IMG/VR virus record: IMGVR_UViG_3300032289_002562
Location: 1 to 31,909 of that record
Origin: a virus
Reading direction: 5' to 3' (one strand)
Length of the DNA stretch: 31,909 nucleotides
Shown here: positions 3,115-27,530 of the stretch, piece by piece
How the letters are laid out: the number at the start of each line of letters is the position of its first letter
Position numbering within the stretch: the stretch's first letter is position 1
Notes under the pieces: generated by a model
Database searches by the model: none
The model's input: the letters and a program-made list of their open reading frames with translations, nothing else
What the model was told of the DNA's origin: nothing
Made by a program: the position numbers and the translations under genes

Positions 3115-5250
3115 TTATTTTTTATTGGCATCTTTCGAGTCGATAAAGCCAATGTATTCAATAAGAGCTTTGCTGAATTTCTTATGGTTGTAATCATCTG
3201 CGGTAGGCATAATTAGAGAATACTTTTCGTCGATCTTTTTTACCATTGCACCGAACTCCGCGATTTGTTTCTTGATAGTCTTCTCTCCATCAATGATTAG
3301 GGAACTATCTGCGAGTTTAATCAGACCAAGGACTTTAGGGGAAAAGCACTTGTCGTCGTCTTGAATGATTGGCTTAATCAAATCGTATGCGCGAACGATA
3401 AGGTGAGATTGGTCAAGAACTTTTGACAATTCTTGAATTGTCTCTGGCATTCCACGGAAAGACCAGTTGCTTGTATCGCGGAACTTGGACTTGAAATCTG
3501 ACCAAGAGATAGCGTTTGCACCTTTGTTGGCAATATCCTTAAAGTTCTTCGTTTTAATAAGATCGCAAAACTTAACAAGAGGTTTCCCGTCAAAGGACGA
3601 ATCATTGAAAGAATCATACTCGGACTTGGCAAGAAACAAAGCGGCAAACTTCTTTTTGTATTCCGACCCAAGCAGGTTAATGATTGGATCAACATAAGTA
3701 GCAGTAGCTTCACCATATACTTTATTAGAAGAAGTAGGGAACAAGATAAACTCTTGTGCATCTTTAATGTGCTTATCTGTATTGTCATACAGGGAAACAG
3801 AATCATGGACTCCATAGCTACGACCAGAACGCATACGGAATGATCCCTTTGCTGTTGATCCGTTAGATGTAGTGGTCTTGCCCTTGGTAGGAACTTTAGC
3901 TAAAGAACTTGTGAAAACAAAGTCACCGATCCATCCAGTTTCTTTAATAAATTTAGACTTCTGATCAGCTTTGAAAATGTAGAATGCGTAGCCATTATAG
4001 GAATCATTCTTTTTCTTTTCCAAGATGAATTGTTTGGCGCGACCAATTCCACCAACTTTAAGATCATCAACGAATAAAAATGCTCTTTTGTTAGCTTCAA
4101 TGTTCTTGATTGTATCGTCAACGGAAATCTTTTTATTCCATGAGGATGTAGTGTATAGGGTGACTTTTGTATCCTTCACAACTAAAGCCGTGGCAGTAAG
4201 AGGGTTGCCCTTCCATTCCAGCTTGAGAGTGTTAGGCAGGAAAGAAAACGCCTCGCGCAATTCTTTTAATTTAAGTTTAGCATCCCAAGTATTGCCTTGG
4301 AAATTATCCATATCCGCTTGCATTTTAGGAACAAACGATTCGACAATTTGATCAAACTTATTGAATAGGCGAGTTAATGTAAGATCATCCAACTGAATAG
4401 CTTCACGCGAAGGAGTGATGCTGTATTCACCAATCGGCACATGGATGGACATATTGCAACCTAAAAGCGAGCGGAACTTCTCAAACTTTTTGTTTTCGAG
4501 AATAGTTTCAACTGGCAAGCGGTAGCCAACGCCTCCCATGACTACGATAGGAGAGCCATGCCCATTGTAGATGGAAAAATTATTGCTTCCACCATCAAAC
4601 ATGATTGAGTCAGAATTAAAATTGATTTTTTTCTCTACGCTATCACAGAAAACTTTTGGCTTGACCGAGAAGAAGCGATAAGCCTTTTCGACTTTAGAAT
4701 TAAAATCGCCGACATAACGATCAGGACAGAGGAACTTTACCTCAAATCCATTGCGTTCTGATGTTGGTTCGCTCTTAATAAGTTTAATGTCCGGCAAGCC
4801 GTTGGATTGCAAGGAAATAAAGTATTGCGACTTGGTTCCATTGAAGCGGGAGATAGCTTGGAAGTTATTGACCAGAGAGCAAAGCGACCACTTGCCAACG
4901 CCGAACCCGCCAATGAGGTCATTGTTGCCCCGCTTGCTGGATGCACCAATGATAGAATAAATCCGAATCATTTGATCGTGAGAGATACCGACTCCGTTAT
5001 CAACGAAGCGAACATTTGCATCAAGGCGAGTAGGAAGATGCAATTCCCATCCGAGCTTTTGTGAACCTGCTTCGATAATAGCGTCAACGCAATTTGCGCC
5101 GACTTCACGAAGGACTGCCATAGTAGGGTCTTGATACAGGTTGGCAATCATGCGGAAGAAGTGAGCGATATTCTTCTGGTCGATGCCTACCTCGATAGTT
5201 TCAAAATTTCCCTCGAAGTGAACTTTATTGGTTTTGTCTGTGATGATCAT
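3115..5250 (-). CDS. rIIA: rIIA-like protein with GHKL ATPase domain
   Basis: This 711-aa protein has the size and domain order of phage rIIA. The N-terminal ~200 residues contain the Bergerat (GHKL) ATP site: EVGANCVDAI (N-box), FVDNGVGIS (G1 box) and GGFGVGKWSLCS (G2 box), as in HSP90/MutL/gyrase-type ATPases. The remaining ~500 residues have no motif I can name. RIIA works with RIIB, whose gene follows directly, in the membrane-linked early response to infection. The gene has its own promoter (5279-5307), a Shine-Dalgarno-less leader with a tandem CAACCAACCAACC just before ATG, and a strong stem-loop after the stop. Its first Ile codons are all ATC, unlike the ATA-rich genes beyond 13 kb. 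Confidence 0.9.
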   Translation of the reverse strand: MIITDKTNKVHFEGNFETIEVGIDQKNIAHFFRMIANLYQDPTMAVLREVGANCVDAIIEAGSQKLGWELHLPTRLDANVRFVDNGVGISHDQMIRIYSIIGASSKRGNNDLIGGFGVGKWSLCSLVNNFQAISRFNGTKSQYFISLQSNGLPDIKLIKSEPTSERNGFEVKFLCPDRYVGDFNSKVEKAYRFFSVKPKVFCDSVEKKINFNSDSIMFDGGSNNFSIYNGHGSPIVVMGGVGYRLPVETILENKKFEKFRSLLGCNMSIHVPIGEYSITPSREAIQLDDLTLTRLFNKFDQIVESFVPKMQADMDNFQGNTWDAKLKLKELREAFSFLPNTLKLEWKGNPLTATALVVKDTKVTLYTTSSWNKKISVDDTIKNIEANKRAFLFVDDLKVGGIGRAKQFILEKKKNDSYNGYAFYIFKADQKSKFIKETGWIGDFVFTSSLAKVPTKGKTTTSNGSTAKGSFRMRSGRSYGVHDSVSLYDNTDKHIKDAQEFILFPTSSNKVYGEATATYVDPIINLLGSEYKKKFAALFLAKSEYDSFNDSSFDGKPLVKFCDLIKTKNFKDIANKGANAISWSDFKSKFRDTSNWSFRGMPETIQELSKVLDQSHLIVRAYDLIKPIIQDDDKCFSPKVLGLIKLADSSLIIDGEKTIKKQIAEFGAMVKKIDEKYSLIMPTADDYNHKKFSKALIEYIGFIDSKDANKK

Positions 5251-7454: not shown

Positions 7455-7510
7455 GGCGCCGGCCGTATCGGCCCTAGTGAAAAAGTTCATTTTCCGCGCC
7501 GGGTTTTTAA
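7455..7510 (+). ncRNA. Candidate three-way-junction RNA or terminator
   Basis: A GC-rich island in a very AT-rich spacer. On the plus strand GGCGC (7455-7459) pairs with GCGCC (7496-7500). Inside are GGCCG-TAT-CGGCC and GAAAA...TTTTC hairpins, and GGGTTTTTAATTTT follows. The mirror structure also forms on the minus strand, where tRNA transcription runs, so a bidirectional terminator is possible. Confidence 0.4.
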
Positions 7511-8093: not shown

Positions 8094-8171
<78 letters not shown>

Positions 8172-8183
8172 TTATATAAAATC

Positions 8184-8258
8184 TGCCTGTCGAGGGATGT
8201 GCGCCCACTATCTTCGGTTTATGAAACCGACGCTTATAACTCCTTAAGCTTCACAGGC
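8184..8258 (-). tRNA. CAU-anticodon tRNA, probably tRNA-Ile2 (or tRNA-Met)
   Basis: The acceptor is GCCTGTG/GACAGGC, with six pairs and a mismatch at the inner end. The D arm is GCTT...AAGC with GG in its loop. The anticodon stem TCGGT/ACCGA encloses TTCATAA, giving anticodon CAT. The T arm GTGGG/CCCTC has one T-T mismatch, and the loop CGCACAT lacks the usual TTCRA core. CCA is not encoded; the discriminator is A. By anticodon alone this is tRNA-Met or a tRNA-Ile whose C34 becomes lysidine to read AUA. The next gene upstream on the same strand is tilS-like, which favours Ile2. The odd T loop may lower automated scores. Confidence 0.75.
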
Positions 8259-8271
8259 TTATAAAATTGTT

Positions 8272-8313
8272 TCAAAAATCTATTCTATTTATTTTACAAG
8301 GCTAGATAACCTT
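8272..8313 (-). repeat. Shared tRNA leader, copy 1 (before the CAU tRNA)
   Basis: On the plus strand this reads TCAAAAATCT, then ATTTATTTT, then AAGGCTAGATAACCTT. It aligns over ~42 bases with 9974-10017 upstream of tRNA-Leu. AAGG/CCTT closes a small hairpin in both. Confidence 0.65.
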
Positions 8314-8333
8314 CATCCGCTCTGTATACTATA

Positions 8334-8993
8334 CTACTCTTTTACCATTTCATCAAGATGTTTCTTCATTTTTTTGAAGACTACCTTGTGAAGACCCTTG
8401 TATTTCTGTTCGATCATTGGCAATACAACCTTCCTGCTCCAGTTGCGCATCAAAGAAAGATCGGAATTAAGTTCGTCTTCCAAAATATAAGGCGCGAGAC
8501 CGTTCTTTTCTGCGTATTCCGCGAAATCTGATTTTTTATTCAATAAAAAGGGGCGAAAAATCGCAACCTCTGGATATTTGCAGAAGTATTGGATTGGAAC
8601 ATATTCCGGATGCCCTTTTAGAAAGTTCAAAAAATAAGACTCCACACAGTCATCTAAGTGATGAGCAGTGCAAATATAATTGTAATTATTATTTTTAGCA
8701 AAGCTCCGTAGCATATTGTATCTTACATTTCTACAAAAATCCTCCTTGCTGCCCTTCTTGTATTTTTCTTTTGAAGTTAGAATGCTGTGTTGAATAAAAT
8801 GCTTTTTACAAAAATTCTCTACATTTTCAGCTGTCTCAGCATCTTGCTCAATAAATTTATTATTAATATGAACAGCGTGGAAGTTAAATTTTTTCTTGGA
8901 TAAGAAACTGCAAGCCGCGATGCTATCAATTCCACCAGAAAGAGCAAGAATAAATTTTGAATTTGGAAAGTATTTTTTATTGAATGTTAGCAT
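8334..8993 (-). CDS. tilS: TilS-like tRNA(Ile)-lysidine synthetase, catalytic domain
   Basis: A 219-aa N-type ATP pyrophosphatase. The PP-loop SGGIDS is at residues 19-24. TilS-type signatures follow: EDFCRNVRYNML near 83-94, CTAHHLDDCVESYFLNFLKG near 108-127, FRPFLL near 145-150, and the C-terminal pattern EDELNSDLSLMRNWSRKVVLP. TilS uses ATP and lysine to turn C34 of tRNA-Ile2(CAU) into lysidine, switching recognition from AUG to AUA. The protein lacks the extra C-terminal domains of E. coli TilS (about 430 aa) and corresponds to the minimal catalytic form. A CAU tRNA lies just downstream on the same strand. The start is divergent from the homing endonuclease gene. A TtcA-like thiolase is the alternative but lacks the RN..R..vlP pattern. 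Confidence 0.88.
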   Translation of the reverse strand: MLTFNKKYFPNSKFILALSGGIDSIAACSFLSKKKFNFHAVHINNKFIEQDAETAENVENFCKKHFIQHSILTSKEKYKKGSKEDFCRNVRYNMLRSFAKNNNYNYICTAHHLDDCVESYFLNFLKGHPEYVPIQYFCKYPEVAIFRPFLLNKKSDFAEYAEKNGLAPYILEDELNSDLSLMRNWSRKVVLPMIEQKYKGLHKVVFKKMKKHLDEMVKE

Positions 8994-9052
8994 TTACTTC
9001 TTATACTATCGAAGAAAGGGTTCGAAAATTGATTTTTAGTGTAATTTATTTT

Positions 9053-9748
9053 ATGACCAATTATGAATTAGATTGCTGTTTCTGTAAAAAGAAATATAAA
9101 CCAAGTAAAATGAGGTATTATGCCGCAAAATATCAATTGAAAAAATTAAATCAAAAACATTATTGTAGCAAAAAATGTAGATATTCGGGAACCGGAAGAG
9201 AAGAACCTTTAAATGTGAATTGTTTGAATTGTAATAAAGAGTTTAAAAAAACTGTAAAAGAATTAAAGAAGCATCCAAATAGTTTTTGTTCTAGATCATG
9301 CGCAGCTACTTATAATAATAAAAATAAAACTCATGGAACAAGAAGATCAAAACTAGAAATATATTTAGAAGACCAATTGAAATCTAAATATAAAAATTTA
9401 GAGATTCATTTCAATCGAAAAGATGCTATTAATTCCGAATTAGATATTTATATTCCATCTATGAAACTGGCATTTGAATTAAATGGAATCTTTCATTATG
9501 AGCCTATCTATGGTGACAAGAAACTAAATCAGATTCAGAATAACGATACAAGGAAATTTCAAGCTTGTTTGGAGCAAGGAATTGAAATGTGCATTATTGA
9601 TGTTTCTTCTTTATCGTATTTTAAGCCAGCAAATGCTAAGAAATTCTTAGATATCGTTTGCGGTTTGATTGATAAAAAAAATGGTCCCATCGGCCGGGTT
9701 CGAACCGGCACTCTCCTTTCGGAAAATCAGATTTTCTTACCACTATAG
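9053..9748 (+). CDS. Free-standing homing endonuclease, Vsr-like/EDxHD type
   Basis: About 231 aa from MTNYELDCCF; an in-frame ATG at 8984 would overlap the tilS start and adds a segment with no domain character. The N-terminal half has two zinc-ribbon-like cysteine sets (CFC...CSKKC and CLNC...CSRSC). The C-terminal half has the Vsr-like nuclease pattern ELDIYIPSMKLAFELNG followed by FHYEP, K..QIQNNDTRKFQ and GIEMCIIDV, typical of phage EDxHD-type mobile endonucleases. It is one of only two plus-strand genes and faces the tRNA-Leu gene. Its final ~22 codons are the antisense of the tRNA-Leu 3' exon, and the stop (9746-9748) lies inside the intron, so the natural C-terminus was probably replaced on insertion. 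Target site unknown. Confidence 0.8.
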   Translation: MTNYELDCCFCKKKYKPSKMRYYAAKYQLKKLNQKHYCSKKCRYSGTGREEPLNVNCLNCNKEFKKTVKELKKHPNSFCSRSCAATYNNKNKTHGTRRSKLEIYLEDQLKSKYKNLEIHFNRKDAINSELDIYIPSMKLAFELNGIFHYEPIYGDKKLNQIQNNDTRKFQACLEQGIEMCIIDVSSLSYFKPANAKKFLDIVCGLIDKKNGPIGRVRTGTLLSENQIFLPL

Positions 9749-9968
9749 TTTTCACTACCATTTCTGTTTGTGGCCTGGACTATGCCTTTACCTTAGCTTT
9801 TGCTTTAGGTAGGTGATTATAGTCTCTACACGTCTCTCTTTTGGAGATTTCGCTCGGCGTTGGGAGATTAAACCGTTCACCGAATTTACACCATTCATTT
9901 GGAAGATTTCTCTACCAAAGCTCAAATTTATATAAGTCTGATGCGTATGCCTATTTCGCCACGATGGG
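9682..9968 (-). tRNA. tRNA-Leu(UAA) interrupted by a group I intron
   Basis: Exon 1 is 9934-9968 and exon 2 is 9682-9735. Joined they give an 89-nt leucine tRNA with encoded CCA: acceptor CCCATCG/CGATGGG, D stem GCG/CGC, anticodon stem TCAGA/TCTGA with loop CTT+AAAA (anticodon TAA), long variable arm with TCC-GAAA-GGA, T arm GCCGG-TTCGAAC-CCGGC, discriminator A. The intron splits the anticodon between U34 and A35, the same site as the well-known cyanobacterial and plastid tRNA-Leu(UAA) intron. It reads UUA. Confidence 0.93.
9736..9933 (-). ncRNA. Group I intron (198 nt) within tRNA-Leu(UAA)
   Basis: Hallmarks on the minus strand: P1 can form between exon CUU and intron GAG (9921-9923) in the context UUUGAGC, placing a U.G wobble at the 5' splice site. 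P7 strands GACTAT (9819-9824) and ATAGTC (9778-9783) sit in contexts close to GUGCAGAGACU.../AAGGUAAAG..AGUCC of cyanobacterial introns. P8-like CCTA...TAGG-type pairing with an AGC-AAAA-GCT tip lies between them. The last base is G (omega-G, 9736), followed by exon AAAATCTGA. No open reading frame fits inside; the nearest endonuclease gene overlaps its 3' edge in antisense. Confidence 0.9.
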
Positions 9969-24857: not shown

Positions 24858-25844
24858 TTATATTTTATTAATTTTATTCATTACGTGTCTGATAGCCATC
24901 CACATATCTAAATATTTGTACATGGCTAATCTTCCGAGGAAGATAACATTTTCTTCTTTGTCTGCCAATTCTTTGTATTTGTTATAAATATCTATACCTT
25001 CCCCAAAAGGTATTGGATAGAATGGTATATCTTCATCATTGCATTCTTTAGGAAATTCTTCTGTTATAATGGTTTTTCCTTTATGGTCATAATTAAAATA
25101 GCTATGGTCATAAATTCTTGTTGATTTTGTATTCTTTGTATTTTGATTTATTGCGACTGCTGGTAGCTTTTCATTGCTAGTTTTAAATGTAAAATCTAAA
25201 GATCTATATGGAAGTTTTCCAAAACAAAAATTAAAATATTCGTCTATTTTTCCTGTATAAACTATAAGATCTGCATTTATTTTTTTCCACTCATCTTTTG
25301 AGCATGAGGTATTAACTTTGATACCCTCTAGCATATTTTCCATCATTTTTGTATAACCATGCTTTGGAATACATTGATATTTTTCATTTCTATACCAAGT
25401 TGGATCTTCGTCGTCTTTTGTTTTTGGTATTCTGTTTATTATTGATTTGGGTATTTGATCAAAATTAACACCCCATTGTTTTTCGGAATAATCCTTGAAA
25501 ATTATATCTATAATTTCTTCTTGGGATAATTCTCTACCAATTTCTTTTATTGTTTTTTTGCTGTATGGAAGTGATATTTTTCCGATTTTTGTATCTCCAA
25601 TTGGTTGGTATTTAAAATCAAACCATTCGGTATATCTACTTAAAAAAGAAAAAACTTCCTCGTCGTCTGTATGAAATATGTGAGGGCCATAATTGTGAAC
25701 TAATGTTCCAGCCAGATTGCTATCAAAACAATTCCCACCTATATGGTTTCTTGATTCAAATATTTCAACATCATATCCCTTTTCCTTCAAAAGTATTGCC
25801 GCAGTTATTCCGGAAAGTCCACATCCTATTATTTTAACTTTCAT
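24858..25844 (-). CDS. glf: UDP-galactopyranose mutase
   Basis: A 328-aa FAD enzyme that interconverts UDP-galactopyranose and UDP-galactofuranose. The N-terminal dinucleotide-binding motif is IIGCGLSGITAAILL (residues 5-19), followed by FESRNHIGGNCFDS, the family hallmark YGPHIFHTDD, the YTGKIDEYF segment and LPYRSLDF. The C-terminal signature is NVIFLGRLAMYKYLDMWMAI. It is 40-60 residues shorter than most bacterial enzymes (370-390 aa), mainly in the middle, but the visible motifs are intact. The first six Ile codons are all ATA. It sits in an operon with small hypothetical genes, RNA ligase and a sulfotransferase-like gene. The product would be a galactofuranose donor for one of the glycosyltransferases. 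Confidence 0.94.
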   Translation of the reverse strand: MKVKIIGCGLSGITAAILLKEKGYDVEIFESRNHIGGNCFDSNLAGTLVHNYGPHIFHTDDEEVFSFLSRYTEWFDFKYQPIGDTKIGKISLPYSKKTIKEIGRELSQEEIIDIIFKDYSEKQWGVNFDQIPKSIINRIPKTKDDEDPTWYRNEKYQCIPKHGYTKMMENMLEGIKVNTSCSKDEWKKINADLIVYTGKIDEYFNFCFGKLPYRSLDFTFKTSNEKLPAVAINQNTKNTKSTRIYDHSYFNYDHKGKTIITEEFPKECNDEDIPFYPIPFGEGIDIYNKYKELADKEENVIFLGRLAMYKYLDMWMAIRHVMNKINKI

Positions 25845-26091: not shown

Positions 26092-26454
26092 TTATTTAAT
26101 ATCTTTGTCAATATCGACTAAGTTTCTAAGAAAACATAAATTATTTAAAGCATTATCGCACGCATCCCAGTCTCTCATTTGCATGCTAGATTCATAATCG
26201 TTATCGTATTTGTCAATTTTTTTCGTTATTGACTTTTTGAAGTCTTTGGAAATATTACTTTTAAGGTAAGTAATTATCTTTTCTAAGTCTTCGTCATGTA
26301 AATGAAAAGTTATATCCATTCCGTCGTATTTGGACTCATATCCACAAGAAATTTTTAATTCTACAGGAACCGCAAACTTGCCCAAGTTTTTTCCAGAAAA
26401 GTCAGAGTAATAAACAGCTTCTTCTCTTTCAGCTGGCTTGATTATTTTTTTCAT
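26092..26454 (-). CDS. Unrecognised 120-aa protein
   Basis: A strand-rich first half (EEAVYYSDFSGKNLGKFAVP, VELKISCGYESKYDGMDITF) is followed by helices (DEDLEKIITYLKSNISKDF, MRDWDACDNALNNLCFLRN). I do not recognise it. Its ATG overlaps the RNA ligase stop (ATGA), so it is translated after the ligase. Confidence 0.62.
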   Translation of the reverse strand: MKKIIKPAEREEAVYYSDFSGKNLGKFAVPVELKISCGYESKYDGMDITFHLHDEDLEKIITYLKSNISKDFKKSITKKIDKYDNDYESSMQMRDWDACDNALNNLCFLRNLVDIDKDIK

Positions 26455-27530
26455 AATAGATTATTAATTATTTTTATCCATTGAGTTTTAGATATGGGCT
26501 TATTATCAAGTATAGAAAAAGCATAAGCGGAATATTCTTTGTATTGTGTTTTTATCATTTTAGCTTGTTCTTTTCTAGATTCTGATTTTCTAATATCATG
26601 AACCATTTCAAGAATGTTATCTATATATTTTTTTGCTTTTTCGCCGGAATTGCAAATTTTTTCTATTTCGTCTTTTAATTGTAAAGCTATTTCAAAATCA
26701 AATTCTGTTTCGATTTTTTTATAGAAATCTTCGAAATTAGGCATTTCGGAATCAACAAAGTATTCAATTAAATTATTTTGTGAGCTTAATTGCGACTTGA
26801 CTCTATGACAAAACAAATACCAGTCTGACTTTAATTTAATCCTATTCTGTCCATTATTATAGGATATAACAATTCCTTCTTTGCCCTTCCAGTTTTTAAT
26901 AGTCTCTGCTATTTTAGAAAGATTTTTAGTATCTAGAAAGTTATATGATTGTGGAGTTGGCATCGGACCAATCTTTCTCCATATATCTGTTAAGTCTTTT
27001 GGGGAAACAACAACCATACCGTTTTTATTTATTGCTCCAATCAAATGAAACTCTATTTGTTGGGGTCTAACAACAATAACATTGTTTGGAGTTGTGATTT
27101 CAAATAAAAGACTAAGATGCGAGTTTTCTTTTAAGAACTCGACTATTTTTGGGTATTTTTCTGGCAGTAATTCGAAATCTTTAGAATTTTCTTGAAAAGT
27201 ATAAGAAACTGTACCTCTTGTTCTCATTGAGAACTGATTATTGACATAGTCTGCTATAAGAAGAGAGCCGTCTATCTTGTTTTCTAGTTTCCAGTCCTTG
27301 TAATCATCTGGATTTGGATAGCATTCCGTTTTTTCGCCATAGTTAAAAAACTTTGGGAAGCCGGAAGATAAAACATTACCTTCTTTATCTATAATTAGAG
27401 AACGATAAAATAAATTATTTTTATTCCATTTTACGTCGGCTTTCGGAGTTATCAAATAACAATCTAATCCGCAAAACTTATTTTGAAGAAAATTAAAACA
27501 CTTTTTATCTGAAAAAAAAACGGCTTTCAT
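26451..27530 (-). CDS. T4 Rnl1-type RNA ligase
   Basis: A 359-aa nucleotidyltransferase. Motif I is LENKIDGSLLIA near residues 82-93, with Lys as the adenylation site. Before it stand the Rnl1-like YRSLIIDKEGNVLSSGFPKF and FNYGE. Motif III-like LLFEITTPNNVIVVRP lies near 141-156, motif IV KGKEGIVISY near 217-226 and motif V RIKLKSDWY near 231-239. The C-terminal ~110 residues are helical, as in T4 Rnl1 (374 aa). T4 Rnl1 joins tRNA halves cut in the anticodon loop by host nucleases such as PrrC. No polynucleotide kinase is visible in the window. The context of phage tRNA genes fits a tRNA-repair role. Confidence 0.9.
   Translation of the reverse strand: MKAVFFSDKKCFNFLQNKFCGLDCYLITPKADVKWNKNNLFYRSLIIDKEGNVLSSGFPKFFNYGEKTECYPNPDDYKDWKLENKIDGSLLIADYVNNQFSMRTRGTVSYTFQENSKDFELLPEKYPKIVEFLKENSHLSLLFEITTPNNVIVVRPQQIEFHLIGAINKNGMVVVSPKDLTDIWRKIGPMPTPQSYNFLDTKNLSKIAETIKNWKGKEGIVISYNNGQNRIKLKSDWYLFCHRVKSQLSSQNNLIEYFVDSEMPNFEDFYKKIETEFDFEIALQLKDEIEKICNSGEKAKKYIDNILEMVHDIRKSESRKEQAKMIKTQYKEYSAYAFSILDNKPISKTQWIKIINNLL

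Follow-up and report, generated by a model that had tools for sequence, protein, structure and literature searches.

A phage lysidine synthetase gene that avoids ATA beside a CAU-anticodon tRNA: a probable AUA-decoding module

The tilS gene and the adjoining CAU-anticodon tRNA of this virus probably constitute a phage AUA-decoding module, in which tilS appears to have been purged of AUA codons through dependence on its own product. In the mechanism proposed, TilS would convert C34 of the adjoining tRNA to lysidine, and the tRNA bearing lysidine would be charged with isoleucine and read AUA, supplying the many AUA codons of the AT-rich phage genes. If decoding of AUA by the host is limiting, tilS would have lost its AUA codons because these are poorly readable until both TilS and the tRNA have been made.

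The window, which is the whole stretch of DNA analysed here, is a 31,909-base IMG/VR virus record with T4-like gene content, including rIIA, rIIB, a clamp loader, a dCMP deaminase, and a T4-type RNA ligase. On the minus strand, tilS is followed by a 75-nt gap (8259–8333), the CAU tRNA, tRNA-Arg(UCU), and tRNA-Glu(UUC) (Table 1). The spacing and shared strand of tilS and the CAU tRNA reported in the first-pass annotation are confirmed by these coordinates.

Table 1. Features of the tilS–tRNA locus and ATA usage of genes in the window
Feature	Position	Strand	Evidence or remark
tilS, 219-aa lysidine synthetase, catalytic (PP-loop) domain only	8334–8993	−	TIGR02432, Foldseek, motifs; zero ATA codons
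CAU-anticodon tRNA, probable tRNA-Ile2 substrate, non-canonical	8184–8258	−	Rfam RF00005, 38.4 bits
Anticodon CAU, C34 the proposed lysidine site	8221–8223	−	Sequence; arm TCGGT-TTCATAA-ACCGA
tRNA-Arg(UCU), reads AGA, same tRNA run	8094–8171	−	ARAGORN; Rfam 60 bits
tRNA-Glu(UUC), reads GAA	7235–7309	−	ARAGORN; Rfam 62.3 bits
tRNA-Leu(UAA) split by group I intron; upstream neighbour of tilS	9682–9968	−	ARAGORN intron mode; Rfam
Intron_gpI (RF00028) inside tRNA-Leu(UAA)	9754–9943		50.1 bits, gathering score 50
HNH/homing-endonuclease-like ORF between tRNA-Leu and tilS	8984–9748	+	phrog_559, phrog_3339, others
Clamp loader, ATA-free block	94–1092	−	ATA 0/13 Ile codons
rIIB, ATA-free block	2018–2917	−	ATA 0/18 Ile codons
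rIIA, ATA-free block	3115–5250	−	ATA 0/58 Ile codons
ATA-rich genes	10393–31793		ATA 166/448 Ile codons
glf	24858–25844		ATA 24/37 Ile codons
T4-type RNA ligase 1 gene	26451–27530		

The enzyme is firmly identified as a TilS by its sequence and predicted fold. It scores 121.7 bits against TIGR02432 (cut-off 93.6), covering positions 1–189 of 189, and its matches among PDB sequences (1wy5/2e21, 3a2k, 1ni5) are chiefly TilS. The AlphaFold model (pLDDT 89.5) has 2e21, the TilS of A. aeolicus, as its top Foldseek match (TMq 0.81). The SGGIDS, AHHLDD, and MRNWSRKVVLP motifs noted at first pass are all found, and in alignments of 24–27 phage TilS sequences SGGxDS, HHLDD/E (LDD), D..N, and RN..R are invariant or nearly so. 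A TtcA-type thiolase, named at first pass as the grouping that would speak against TilS, is excluded: the score against the TtcA model (44.7 bits) is far under the cut-off of 272, and the search for TtcA/TtuA iron-sulfur cysteines found no invariant Cys across the phage TilS alignments.

The PP-loop domain, the motifs, and the TIGR02432 equivalog are common to the phage enzyme and to bacterial TilS of type I (E. coli, Geobacillus) and type II (A. aeolicus); the phage form differs in having neither CTD1 nor CTD2 and in ending at ~200–220 aa. Since the window TilS has no C-terminal domain, its 219-aa chain stopping once the catalytic domain is complete, it is classed as a catalytic-domain-only variant, neither type I nor type II. 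In known TilS, tRNA contact is made by the C-terminal domain(s), one in type II and CTD1 plus CTD2 in type I, and the acceptor pairs read by the E. coli enzyme are C4:G69 and C5:G68 (PMC12514573).

The window CAU tRNA is recognized by Rfam (cut-off 29, E = 8e-5) and is not called by ARAGORN. In place of the canonical U8 and TTCRA T-loop it has A8 and the T-loop CGCACAT, together with a G7·G66 mismatch and no encoded CCA. Using the tRNA-Ile2(CAU) identity set of PMC9976931 as reference, it has CAU, A37, A38, the discriminator A73, and U12-A23. Its acceptor stem has U4-A69 and G5-C68, not the determinants C4-G69, preferred by E. coli TilS and IleRS, and C5-G68, preferred by TilS. Among elongator tRNA-Met features, U4-A69 is present and G2-C71 and A5-U68 are not. 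Initiator tRNA-fMet is excluded, as the anticodon stem is TCGGT/ACCGA rather than GGG/CCC and G1-C72 is paired, with no 1-72 mismatch. By its bases, therefore, the tRNA fits neither Ile2 nor Met cleanly and, because it fails both the acceptor rules and the canonical T-loop, its Ile2 identity rests on its position and its kin. It is probably the tRNA-Ile2 substrate of TilS, an assignment that is strong for the family as a whole. The first-pass claim of a tRNA-Ile2 substrate holds for the family, through linkage and Ile2-type acceptor pairs, and is weakened for the window tRNA itself; the Ile2-versus-Met comparison that it called for removes initiator Met and leaves U4-A69 and G5-C68 against the TilS and IleRS rules.

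To place the locus among others, 80 phage loci from IMG/VR and the window were grouped into 45 clusters below 90 % identity. Unannotated GenBank phage matches (L005–L007) were left out, since they may stem from bacterial DNA that was present in phage preparations. Five loci are close kin of the window TilS (L008, L009, L010, L011, and L012; 68–75 % identity); a clade-specific TilS scan found the same five and nothing further, and a single-sequence TilS scan gave no matches. The order tRNA-Leu, tilS, CAU tRNA is shared by L009, L010, L011, and L012, and these genes occur in another arrangement in L008. In a tree with 35 bacterial TilS, for which bootstrap values were not settled and both the phage and the bacterial samples were drawn by peptide patterns, the phage TilS form one group (98/98) that includes only three MAG contigs, which may themselves be viral.

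A CAU tRNA adjoins tilS in 22 of the 45 clusters, usually 13–105 nt downstream (typically about 40 nt) on the same strand, and is often the sole tRNA within 12 kb; the other 23 clusters have no adjacent CAU tRNA. The nearest tRNA lies within 250 nt of tilS in 28 of 45 clusters, and its anticodon is CAU in 18 of these 28, versus 10 of 104 other tRNAs (binomial p = 2.5e-12). The pairing of tilS with a CAU tRNA exceeds chance. In L014, L036, L046, and L066 a tRNA-Leu(UAA) takes the place of the CAU tRNA, 27–63 nt downstream of tilS.

On our reading of the acceptor rules, bacterial CAU references separate into Ile2 (mainly GGGCCY acceptor), Met (GGCTAY/GGCGGY), and fMet. The commonest tilS-linked phage tRNA has the acceptor GGGCCY, as in bacterial Ile2 and unlike bacterial Met. 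C4-G69 is present in L008, L009, L011, L012, and most linked phage tRNAs, and most linked tRNAs outside the window are canonical. The body of the tRNA turns over while its anticodon does not: at least four body types occupy the same site in close relatives (window/L010, L008, L009/L012, and L011), with CAU constant. Likewise, within one 90 % TilS cluster, L018 and L022 have a long variable arm whereas L019, L021, L026, and L027 have a normal one, again with CAU constant. In the TilS tree the window groups with L008, and L010 with L009, while the odd tRNA is shared by the window and L010; the tRNA body therefore departs from the enzyme tree. A catalytic-domain-only TilS probably reads the anticodon arm, not the acceptor stem, and would in that case leave the tRNA body free to vary, as observed; without acceptor-reading domains the enzyme would tolerate swaps of tRNA bodies.

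CAU tRNAs with a long variable arm, resembling Leu/Ser tRNAs, are found beside or near tilS in L018 (6729–6810), L022 (6729–6810), L065 (5899–5984), and L041 (4867–4949). That of L018 scores under the Rfam cut-off and may be an Ile-reading tRNA on a class II body or a degenerate copy. Decoding of AUA as Leu in L018 and L022 was considered owing to a local hint (12 of 26 Leu) and rejected, as across the whole contigs ATA aligns with Ile as ATT does; in the tested genomes, AUA codons, like AUU codons, fall opposite Ile, Val, and Leu.

Over the 45 clusters, ATA makes up 0.129 of Ile codons in tilS versus 0.344 in the flanking genes (p about 2e-10), and in 35 of 45 the ATA share of tilS falls in the bottom fifth for its locus. 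With clustering at 60 %, tilS is lower than its flanks in 16 of 16 (p = 3e-5). No common codon is comparably depleted; the tilS/flank ratios are 0.99 for AGA, 0.95 for GTA, 0.95 for AAA, and 0.83 for TTA, and that of the rare codon CGG is 0.65 (p = 0.04). Drift in AT/GC content is rejected as the cause, since GC3 is nearly equal in tilS (0.347) and flanks (0.325). Nor is ATA avoidance a general tilS trait, being absent from 80 bacterial tilS loci (ratio 1.03). In the close kin, 4 of 81 Ile codons of tilS are ATA versus 2386 of 6567, in phage PA5oct 2 of 15 versus 167 of 285, and in two huge phages 0 of 18 and 1 of 15 versus about 50 %. In a ten-member GGGCC group avoidance is weak (0.34 vs 0.46), and the hosts of these phages may decode AUA well. 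This pattern of codon use suggests a bootstrap, whereby efficient decoding of AUA would have to await the synthesis of TilS.

Within the window, the ATA count called for at first pass gives 0 of 101 Ile codons in the clamp loader, rIIB, rIIA, and tilS together, versus 166 of 448 from 10393 rightwards. As had been reported, the first five Ile codons of rIIA are ATC, and the run of ATA at the start of glf, given as six, extends to seven. From the ATA-free block to the right-hand genes, AGA rises from 0.20 to 0.68 and TTA from 0.10 to 0.35, in parallel with ATA and matching the phage tRNAs; GC3 differs too (0.42 vs 0.25). Products such as the major capsid protein, GroEL, and gp32 are normally abundant. 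In the kin, the genes for these, together with rIIA/B and DUF932, are nearly ATA-free (9/351), so the contrast in ATA is not purely temporal and the view of the ATA-free block as strictly early genes is weakened; expression level and base composition contribute to the ATA-poor gene set. The earlier statement that the later genes need AUA decoding holds as far as the right-hand genes are ATA-rich, but the ATA-poor genes are not simply the early ones. One such gene, on the contig of L009 (L216, 545–2176), encodes a GroEL-like chaperonin (Pfam Cpn60, E 1e-78) and is nearly without ATA, AGA, and TTA.

As highly expressed genes (capsid, GroEL, gp32, rIIA/B) avoid ATA, expression may explain part of the avoidance in tilS. 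That it explains the whole, with tilS avoiding ATA as an early or highly expressed, host-adapted gene and not through dependence on its own product, is unlikely, since AGA (0.09) and TTA (0.04) are just as scarce as ATA in the nearly ATA-free kin genes, whereas the avoidance in tilS is mainly of ATA (kin tilS values: ATA 0.05, AGA 0.42, TTA 0.22), and across the 45 clusters its AGA and GTA stay close to those of the flanks. Somewhat less likely still is that the chief role of the pair is to make up for host tRNA destroyed by degradation or by anticodon nucleases, the odd body helping to evade cleavage. The T4-type RNA ligase 1 gene, the several tRNAs of the window, and the remodelled elbow of the CAU tRNA would suit this, and replacement by phage tRNAs is discussed in the literature (PMC13191261); against it, linked tRNAs elsewhere are mostly canonical, and replacement alone leaves the ATA avoidance of tilS unexplained. 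Replacement is compatible with an AUA-decoding module and does not exclude it.

It is improbable that the window tRNA is decayed or inactive, with TilS acting on host tRNA-Ile2 or on a tRNA encoded at another phage locus. The aberrant T-loop, A8, the 7-66 mismatch, the missing CCA, and the ARAGORN result would fit decay, as would the 23 clusters in which no CAU tRNA adjoins tilS. However, the odd tRNA recurs in L010, where it is 64/75 identical, with T-loop AGCATGC, a perfect T-stem, and the CCA kept, while the fourfold (synonymous) sites of the two tilS genes are identical at 10 of 39, which is chance level. The tRNA is therefore under selection and maintained. In addition, the 27-43 pair is compensated (U-A in one, C-G in the other), and both tRNAs fold better than shuffles (fold z of the CAU tRNA −2.4 to −2.6). 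An IMG/VR pattern scan for further copies of the odd tRNA returned the contig of L010 only. Very improbable is a TilS that has lost discrimination, modifying host tRNA-Met and so poisoning host translation; it would be in keeping with the missing C-terminal domains, which contact the acceptor stem in known TilS (PMC12514573), but phage translation would be poisoned too, and the CAU tRNA linkage and AUA avoidance of tilS favour AUA decoding. With an AUA-decoding module as the preferred reading, the earlier proposal that the pair is kept to secure AUA reading, putatively without help from the host, gains from linkage in 22 of 45 clusters, Ile2-type acceptors, and the AUA avoidance of tilS, and loses from the failure of the window tRNA under the acceptor rules. 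An extension of it, possible although we would lean against it, is that AUA is a gated codon, barely readable before TilS acts: tilS and the first-expressed genes would be purged of AUA, AUA-rich genes would be held back, and a catalytic-domain-only TilS would permit unusual tRNA bodies (no canonical T-loop, a long variable arm) with AUA decoding kept.

The reason why phages carry tRNAs is still debated. In many lineages here, a tRNA is accompanied in the phage genome by the single enzyme on which its meaning depends, and the codon usage of phage tilS bears a mark of dependence not seen in cellular tilS genes. Through this mark, the question of whether translation is truly limited by the phage tRNA set can be tested cleanly in one gene, and the compact TilS gives a handle on how an enzyme lacking acceptor-reading domains distinguishes AUA from AUG tRNAs. 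This kind of TilS is also carried by two cultured Pseudomonas phages, PA5oct and MIJ3, the first of which shows the ATA mark.

Phage TilS and phage tRNA-Ile2 are each already known separately; no account of a linked tilS–CAU tRNA module or of AUA avoidance by tilS was found in the open-access literature searched. Phage TilS is on record in the Pseudomonas jumbo phages MIJ3 and PA5oct (PMC6892783) and in pelagimyophages PMP-A (PMC7029224), and the accessible parts of these papers make neither a TilS–tRNA link nor one to codon avoidance. PA5oct TilS belongs to the same phage clade and its gene is likewise ATA-avoiding, but its CAU tRNAs lie about 10 kb from tilS, unlike the 75 nt in the window. 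These tRNAs (NC_071039.1, 267558–267631 and 268039–268112) are labelled tRNA-Met and have arms like those of bacterial tRNA-Ile2, so are possibly misannotated. Chloroviruses have TilS with AUA-rich genomes, and it has been proposed to supply AUA decoding (PMC7589089); these are eukaryotic algal viruses, the argument is from whole-genome codon usage, and the available text describes no adjacent CAU tRNA or self-avoidance by tilS. T4-like phages encode tRNA-Ile2(CAU) (PMC1524935), and a vibriophage tRNA(CAU) has been shown to carry lysidine (reviewed in PMC13191261). Such tRNAs read AUA after lysidine formation, as proposed for the window tRNA; they are described with Ile signatures, unlike that of the window, and no phage TilS is mentioned in the accessible parts of these two sources.

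Other features of the locus were also observed. The group I intron interrupts the window tRNA-Leu(UAA) at the anticodon; an intron is present at this site in the window, L011 (67.1 bits), and L012 and absent in L009 and L010, and is a presence/absence polymorphism at one tRNA site. The HNH-like ORF overlaps both the tilS start and the 3′ end of the tRNA-Leu that carries the intron, and may mobilize the adjacent intron. Between 7180 and 8080 the window is AT-rich with few genes, and many repeats of TTTAATTTTAATT flank a short G+C-rich, palindrome-like patch at about 7455–7510.
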